Assembly (NCBI GenBank): GCA_020747065.1
Contig: JAGMVK010000018.1
Coordinates: forward strand, 930,001-994,000
Source: Cadophora sp. MPI-SDFR-AT-0126
Taxonomy: Eukaryota; Ascomycota; Leotiomycetes; Helotiales; Ploettnerulaceae
Direction: 5' to 3'
Length of the DNA: 64,000 nucleotides
Shown: positions 6,680 through 7,728 of the stretch, piece after piece
How the letters are laid out: each line of letters begins with the position of its first letter
Numbering within the stretch: the first letter of the stretch is position 1
Position numbers and translations under genes: made by a program
Notes under the pieces: model-generated
Databases searched by the model: none
Seen by the model: only the letters and a program-made list of their open reading frames with translations
What the model was told of the DNA's origin: nothing

Positions 6680-7502
6680 AGCGAATTAGTACAATTGATA
6701 CTCTGAAGCTCATTGTGGAGAGCGTCGAGTGAAGTTATATGTCATGTCTGGGAGGTGTAGTTGGAAAGATACCGGTTTAATAAAATTCATGTCGTTTGAT
6801 GCATGGAAATTCAGCTATCCCACACCAAAGAAATCTTTGCTTTAGAAGATCTCAACATTTATCATGTTGGGAGTCATCCATCTTTGGATGCCGTTCTCTG
6901 GGTTGACTTACTGACTACCGAATCGTGCATAAATAAAGTAGATTCCGTACTGGTTTGCGACTTTAATATATTTCTGGTGCGCATTTATTTGCTTGTGGAA
7001 GTCTTTTTTGGAATGAGGGCTATGGAGCCGGCGGTAGGAATAGATTCAGAACTTCGTATCCTTCTACATCTGAACAAATAGAGAGAATGTTAAACTCAAA
7101 AAATACACATTAGTCTCATGTAACTGTTTGAAAGACCTAGCGCGGAGATGAAAATGATCTCCTACCTTTCATCCCGAATAATATCATGCCAAGCTTCATA
7201 TGTATGCCGCCATGGAATACGTTTTTAATCATTGCACGTTGGGGGAAGATATATTCGCGTTCATGATTCCTTCTCCGATTCCGATCAACTTACCAAGAAT
7301 GGTTTGTAGACTAACTATTACGTACAGTAAAGTCCCCGTCAGCGCAGGACGGGTTCTAGCTGTCGCTGGTTGGACAGACAGTCTTGCAAAAGTGGGAAAG
7401 GTGGGGGAGGCTGGTAGGGTAGATGCAGGCTCGTGCCACTCATTTCGTTAATTGTCGTAGGTAAGCAAATAAGAAAAAAAAGCTTAAATCATTCTGATTT
7501 GT
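6680..7502. other. Intergenic, upstream of tRNA-Pro
   Basis: No convincing gene. AT-rich, with small open frames without family features. The 50 bases before the tRNA are A-rich, with a run of eight A around 7473. Confidence 0.5.
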
Positions 7503-7509
7503 GGCTCAA

Positions 7510-7521
7510 TGGTCTAGTGGT
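7510..7521 (+). promoter_or_regulatory. Pol III A box (internal)
   Basis: TGGTCTAGTGGT lies uninterrupted in the first tRNA segment and matches the usual A-box core of fungal tRNA-Pro genes. The partner B box is split (see 7640-7704). Confidence 0.7.
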
Positions 7522-7538
7522 ATGATTGTTGCTTCGGG

Positions 7539-7571
7539 AACTCGAATCCCTCTCTTTCTCTAGAGAATGAC
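7539..7571 (+). other. Canonical tRNA intron after position 37
   Basis: 33 nt at the standard eukaryotic tRNA intron site, one base 3' of the anticodon. No GT donor. TCCC at 7547-7550 can pair with GGGA at 7536-7539, the anticodon-intron pairing expected for tRNA splicing endonuclease substrates. Confidence 0.75.
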
Positions 7572-7581
7572 TGTGACAGGC

Positions 7582-7635
7582 GTAAGTCTACTGAAGATTA
7601 CACTTCAGCAAACACCCGAAGCTAACTGATGATAG
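7582..7635 (+). other. Spliceosomal-type intron in tRNA variable loop
   Basis: 54 nt, donor GTAAGT at 7582, CTAAC at 7622-7626, acceptor GATAG ending 7635. Size and all three signals match neighbouring mRNA introns. It lies between positions 47 and 48 of the tRNA. Its removal joins AGGC to CCCGGG, the normal variable loop/T stem. Confidence 0.75.
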
Positions 7636-7639
7636 CCCG

Positions 7640-7704
7640 GGTGTAAGTTCTCTCCACTACGAACCATCGAAAACGCGGTATTAATAAGACATTCAGTCAA
7701 ATCC
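7640..7704 (+). promoter_or_regulatory. Split Pol III B box
   Basis: The B box reads GGT at 7640-7642 and TCAAATCC at 7697-7704. In DNA the halves are 54 bp apart; only the spliced RNA has the contiguous box. Confidence 0.7.
7643..7696 (+). other. Spliceosomal-type intron in tRNA T loop
   Basis: 54 nt, donor GTAAGT at 7643, acceptor TTCAG ending 7696, TTAAT-type branch candidate near 7680-7685. It sits between T54 and T55. Removal rebuilds a perfect T arm. It shares length and donor with the preceding intron but no obvious extended sequence similarity. Confidence 0.75.
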
Positions 7705-7723
7705 CGGTTGAGCCCAACCAACC

Positions 7724-7728
7724 TTTTT
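7724..7728 (+). terminator. Pol III terminator T5
   Basis: TTTTT nine bases after the discriminator base of tRNA-Pro, followed by a second T run at 7731-7734. Confidence 0.6.

Follow-up and report, generated by a model that had tools for sequence, protein, structure and literature searches.

In the textbook account, tRNA introns are spliced by a dedicated endonuclease. Spliceosomal introns are known in non-coding RNA genes but, to our knowledge, not in nuclear tRNA genes. Tani and Ohshima reportedly described mRNA-type introns in the U6 snRNA genes of fission yeast in 1989 and 1991, and Bhattacharya et al. are said to have found spliceosomal introns in ascomycete nuclear rDNA in 2000. The mRNA-type intron is spliced from the Pol III-made U6 RNA of fission yeast and is thought to stem from reverse splicing (PMC10484740); spliceosomal introns are also removed from lichen rRNA and from Pol I transcripts of yeast (PMC8527467). 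Reverse splicing was proposed for U6 because this RNA itself belongs to the spliceosome. A 2014 review on tRNA introns, whose main text nowhere contains the string “spliceosom”, ties the non-canonical tRNA introns known from Cyanidioschyzon merolae and from archaea to bulge-helix-bulge (BHB) motifs (PMC4090602). Within the open-licence papers of PMC, a set that most subscription papers and all preprints lie outside, we found no paper that describes nuclear tRNA genes with spliceosomal introns, in line with the earlier note on this locus, which knew of no established class of this kind.

The stretch of DNA analyzed here, a window of 64,000 nucleotides from Cadophora sp. MPI-SDFR-AT-0126, contains at positions 7503–7715 a tRNA-Pro(CGG) gene that is split by three segments, one of 33 nt and two of 54 nt (Table 1); letters and coordinates were rechecked. 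Joining of the four exons yields a 72-nt tRNA with 7/7 acceptor pairs, 5/5 anticodon-stem pairs (two of them G-U wobbles), 5/5 T-stem pairs, the T loop TTCAAAT, the anticodon CGG, and C73. The parse given in the earlier note is thus right to the base, and ARAGORN identifies the product of joining as tRNA-Pro(cgg). Both 54-nt segments indeed start with GTAAGT and end with AG, and the CTAAC of intron 1 starts 14 nt before the intron end, which equals the nine bases after the motif that had been stated. In the unspliced window, ARAGORN (as run here) found no tRNA, and Rfam gave no match at its gathering score. A model trained on the genome's own tRNAs scored the unspliced gene at only 12.9 bits and found nothing further in the window at E values up to 10. 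We propose that the locus is a nuclear tRNA-Pro(CGG) gene transcribed by Pol III, from whose transcript the spliceosome would take the two GT-AG introns and an endonuclease the intron at 37/38, a reading to which we assign a probability of about 0.86. Elsewhere in the window, a GH76 protein resembles one from Cadophora malorum (91% identity) and one from Oculimacula yallundae (86%), and a DUF3292 protein shows 83% identity to one from Cadophora gregata, which places the fungus within or close to the Ploettnerulaceae (Helotiales).

Table 1. Parts of the tRNA-Pro(CGG) locus (window coordinates), GT-AG intron sites in the split tRNA genes (tRNA positions), and introns of the U6 genes (locus coordinates)
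Feature	Position	Strand	Remarks
AATAAG box	7468..7473	+	predicted upstream Pol III element, 35 nt 5′ of tRNA start
Exon 1	7503..7538	+	acceptor 5′ strand, D arm, 5′ half of anticodon arm with CGG
33-nt intron at 37/38	7539..7571	+	likely tRNA splicing endonuclease substrate; position from fold
Exon 2	7572..7581	+	position 38, anticodon-stem 3′ strand, positions 44–47 (AGGC)
54-nt GT-AG intron 1 at 47/48	7582..7635	+	GTAAGT..GCTAAC..TAG; predicted spliceosomal
Exon 3 (7 nt)	7636..7642	+	position 48, T-stem 5′ strand, T54
54-nt GT-AG intron 2 at 54/55	7643..7696	+	GTAAGT..TATTAATAAG..CAG; B box split; predicted spliceosomal
Exon 4	7697..7715	+	T loop from 55, T-stem 3′ strand, acceptor 3′ strand, C73
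TTTTT	7724..7728	+	predicted Pol III terminator; T run at +9
Pro-CGG (window)			GT-AG introns at 47/48 and 54/55
Pro-AGG L032			GT-AG introns at 6/7 and 61/62
Pro-TGG L034			GT-AG intron at 61/62
Met L052			GT-AG intron at 46/47
Ala-AGC L062			GT-AG intron at 50/51
Arg-TCG L063			GT-AG intron at 55/56
Arg-TCT L057			GT-AG intron at 6/7
Ile-AAT L050, L059			GT-AG intron at 6/7 in each
Ile-AAT L056			GT-AG intron at 5/6
U6 L088 intron	L088:1477-1527		51 nt
U6 L091 introns	L091:1462-1516; L091:1555-1605		55 nt; 51 nt

For the window gene, we enumerated all paired excisions of 40–80 nt after the anticodon half that restore the acceptor, anticodon, and T stems together with a TTCRA T loop; GT-AG ends were not required. 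Intron 2 is GTAAGT..CAG in all seven solutions obtained, and intron 1 slides through seven registers, one of which is GTAAGT..TAG. This register places AGGCC at positions 44–48, the same as in the Pro-AGG gene. The same enumeration gave no solution in resampled controls, neither with the 3′ acceptor strand kept (0/150) nor with everything resampled (0/150).

The genome (54 Mb, 38 contigs) was searched for further tRNA genes, of which 56 were read: 50 of the 51 Rfam tRNA matches (one at C4:1625499, below the cut-off, was left out), the window gene, two Pro genes retrieved with a sequence pattern, and three Phe genes. The Rfam search (RF00005), in which 62 of 1988 candidates were scored, had missed these three tRNA-Phe genes, which contain only an intron at 37/38. 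Ten of the 56 genes hold a total of 12 GT-AG insertions, all 50–60 nt long, at loci spread over seven contigs; as the Rfam search had missed the Phe genes and the split genes were recognized by visual reading, in part with Pro-directed patterns, 10/56 is a lower bound and no unbiased rate. All ten joined sequences are called tRNA by ARAGORN, the Met gene as Met(cat). Besides the window gene there are nine split loci, of which Rfam detected six, some of them only partially, and missed three entirely.

A D-arm pattern with at most three mismatches recovered four Ile-AAT and two Met genes, three and one of which, respectively, are split. Pattern searches found a single Pro-AGG gene, and this gene is doubly split. 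It occupies L032:1428-1625 on contig C8 and, besides its two GT-AG introns, holds a 17-nt intron at 37/38. No GT-AG intron was seen inside positions 8–43 in the genes read, which may be because the searches favor an intact D arm or anticodon arm. Genes for Tyr, His, Asn, Asp, and Glu tRNAs are absent from the 56 read and are perhaps split in the D arm or were simply missed; an approximate Asp query and an Asp/Glu pattern gave no match in the genome.

Judging from these loci, spliceosomal-type insertion is a genome-wide trait and not the property of one odd gene. It is scarcely credible that an assembly artefact or chance has made unrelated fragments rebuild tRNAs: the window tRNA arose in none of the 300 resampled controls, one anatomy recurs at all ten loci, and GT-AG insertions are, by eye, absent from the remaining 46 tRNA genes read in this assembly.

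All 12 tRNA introns begin with GT (11 with GTA, one with GTG) and end with AG. When the three introns of the U6 genes are added, GT...AG holds for all 15, with 10 CAG, four TAG, and one AAG at the 3′ end; GTA opens 14 of them, and the fifth base is G in every case. The 5′ splice site conforms to GTRNGY in 12/12 tRNA introns and 3/3 U6 introns. A CTRAY motif is found in 11 of the 12 tRNA introns, 14–16 nt from the end in ten and 21 nt in one, and the remaining intron, intron 2 of the window gene, has TTAAT at 16 nt from its end instead. The register is unique and GT-AG in 8/12 tRNA introns; the other four allow two to three registers that include GT-AG. TTTTT is absent from the introns and TTTT occurs in one (L063), against 16% of shuffled introns with TTTT, and the rarity of T runs within introns is no strong argument. 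Scanning the window for GT-AG introns gave 30 loose hits versus 18–23 in controls and three strict hits versus 0–1, which is too weak for an intron consensus of the protein genes in this genome.

Two other kinds of intron were considered. An introner family was rejected, since the introns are unlike each other (best z of 3.0 among 105 pairs of the 15 intron interiors), and the window locus matches itself alone at E 0.001. For group I and group II introns, Rfam showed nothing in the window above its gathering score, and 13 further loci, including nine with split tRNAs, yielded no match to such families; 54 nt is too short for either type.

The 33-nt segment of the window gene shares its position with canonical 37/38 introns, the substrates of the Sen complex. 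In contrast, the GT-AG introns lie at 5/6, 6/7, 46/47, 47/48, 50/51, 54/55, 55/56, and 61/62 and carry spliceosome signals, so that by position the canonical class fits the 33-nt segment only and none of the 12 GT-AG introns. A tRNA splicing endonuclease might still remove these introns at non-canonical sites, as in C. merolae and archaea, with the GT-AG ends being incidental. According to the review cited above, tRNA introns at non-canonical positions, in some genes several at a time, do exist in these organisms (PMC4090602), a feature shared by the GT-AG introns, and the intron of Ile L056 shows 9 of 10 possible BHB pairs. However, the C. merolae and archaeal introns are tied to BHB motifs, whereas pairing around the 12 GT-AG introns is at the random level (mean of 5.8/10 versus 5.6 for 5000 random cut pairs, 0.9% of which reach at least 9), in a comparison that had no positive control. 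GT-AG ends in 12/12 introns and a branch motif whose distance to the 3′ end hardly varies would also be unexpected for endonuclease introns. We therefore rejected the BHB class for these introns, with this limit on the comparison, and regard removal by the endonuclease as very improbable.

Removal by the spliceosome is further suggested by the 5′ exons. Five genes have a first exon of only 5–6 nt upstream of a GT-AG intron. In Pro-AGG L032, the 3′ acceptor strand TAAGACC demands the 5′ strand GGTCTTA, which is not present beside the D arm; a branch-site-like sequence and TAG are found directly 5′ of the D arm instead. Upstream lies GGTCTT/GTAAGC...CTAAC...TAG/A (slashes marking the splice sites), which gives 7/7 acceptor pairs. 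The Ile-AAT genes likewise have upstream 5′ exons, GATCGC/GTAAGT in two cases and GGTCG/GTAAGT in one. In Arg-TCT L057, the upstream exon reads GCTCCA/GTATGT where ACTCCA was expected, and its G forms a terminal G-U pair, which the paralogue L003 has too.

Conservation of the exons was judged from paralogues within this one genome. In Ile L050 and Ile L059, the exons match the unsplit gene L007 without any difference (74/74 nt). Those of Ile L056 match L007 at 72/74 nt, and the two changes form one compensatory pair (A2-U71 to G2-C71); the intron of L056 sits between the two bases of this changed pair. The exons of the split Met gene L052 match its unsplit paralogue L016. The nine distinct spliced sequences comprise 189 pair cells, of which 97.4% are paired (shuffle mean, 63.7%), the unpaired cells being four at D-stem position 13-22 and one in the anticodon stem. 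Changes on both sides occur in 17 of 21 pairs versus a shuffle mean of 12.2, in what is a small alignment with related genes. These comparisons indicate that the split class as a whole is not decayed.

The window gene itself could nevertheless be a decaying tRNA copy, its insertions staying unspliced and the tRNA being supplied by other genes. Its anticodon stem is weak, the computed fold of the joined tRNA is poor (misfolded anticodon arm, z of −1.14, 28 of 200 shuffles folding equally well), its B box is split, and a Pro-UGG tRNA could decode CCG through wobble. On the other hand, GT-AG boundaries are exact, and the upstream box and T run are present; together with the full stems across two insertions, from which the earlier note had argued against decay, these features strengthen that argument. 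Moreover, exons are conserved in the split class, and no second CGG gene was found in the genome searches. Decay of the window gene thus appears unlikely, but because of the weak anticodon stem we are less confident that this gene is active than we are for the split class. The exon pattern of Pro-CGG had zero exact matches across the viral and prokaryotic collections.

The surroundings of the split genes resemble those of other tRNA genes. RATAAG occurs at −60 to −20 in 27/46 unsplit tRNA genes versus 1.7% of random windows and is a candidate upstream Pol III element of many tRNA loci. Measured from the first exon, it is present in seven of the ten split genes (all but L034, L050, and L063), with the copy of the window gene at −35, and in the 5′-split genes L032, L056, L057, and L059 its position fits exon 1, not the body of the gene. 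A run of at least five T lies within 60 nt 3′ of 42/46 unsplit genes, and a run of at least four starts no more than 39 nt downstream of all ten split genes. The upstream box and the T runs point to Pol III genes. In the window gene and in L063, however, the B box is split by intron 2 and by the single intron, respectively, which makes it less likely that Pol III initiates efficiently there in the usual way. L063, with TTTT in its intron and no upstream box, may be decaying.

Introns of the same kind are present in the U6 genes of this genome. One gene (L088) has one intron and another (L091) has two, with GTAAGY, CTAAY, and AG; one of the U6 introns lies within the conserved core adjoining AGCAUGGC. 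No intron was found in U6 L089, and none was seen in a diverged U6 copy, L090:1501-1607 on the minus strand (53.5 bits), which lacks a T run, lies ∼0.5 kb from L088 on the opposite strand, and is possibly a pseudogene. In the 5S rRNA genes, no insertion was found among the 26 matches listed, all of which span the whole model at 119–121 nt (47 of 2664 candidates scored).

The chemistry proposed for the split tRNAs would have precedents among the products of both Pol III and Pol I, because the introns of fission yeast U6 and of lichen rRNA are spliced, as are spliceosomal introns in Pol I transcripts of yeast. Like the split tRNAs, the U6 introns of fission yeast are short, have GT-AG ends and a branch motif, and reside in a Pol III RNA gene. 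However, U6 is part of the spliceosome and tRNA is not, and tRNA additionally needs splicing by its own endonuclease. The ascomycete rDNA introns, too, are spliceosomal, lie ectopically in a gene for a non-coding RNA, and are spliced out of a transcript that Pol II does not make, but rDNA yields a long Pol I transcript, whereas the split tRNA genes consist of exons of 5–69 nt and carry internal Pol III promoter boxes.

We envisage that Pol III transcribes the window gene and the other split tRNA genes, and that GTAAGT and CTAAC would be recognized in a U1/U2-type manner. The spliceosome would then remove the GT-AG introns before RNase P and RNase Z meet an intact acceptor/T arm, followed by cleavage by the Sen complex and ligation at 37/38. 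The nine further split tRNA genes, the upstream 5′ exons, the unsplit paralogues, the U6 introns, and the random level of BHB pairing all support, at the sequence level, the involvement of two machineries suggested in the earlier note. As for the origin of these introns, Pol III RNAs may have gained them, perhaps via reverse splicing; we infer this gain because U6 is likewise interrupted and the 26 5S matches are without insertion.

It seems fairly probable that spliceosomal introns invaded Pol III genes of this fungal lineage (U6 and tRNAs of five amino acids with eight anticodons) and thereby made the spliceosome necessary for decoding, because GT-AG introns interrupt the only Pro-AGG gene found twice and three of the four Ile-AAT genes once. 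A Pro-AGG tRNA, for which this gene would be the single source, is needed for CCU and CCC, which make up 22 of the 56 proline codons among 814 codons in homology-supported exons of the window. The cell thus likely needs its mRNA-splicing machinery for some tRNAs, and we infer that, barring another AGG gene, translation in this fungus would depend on spliceosomal tRNA splicing.

Split tRNA genes can evade annotation, as illustrated by the window gene, to which ARAGORN (as run here) and Rfam are blind. If the proposed processing is correct, the spliceosome handles transcripts that are very short and highly structured and whose smallest exons measure 5–7 nt. The Ile and Met paralogues with and without an intron would then catch intron gain underway, in genes that have no protein frame, and two RNA-processing systems that have been regarded as separate would become joined.
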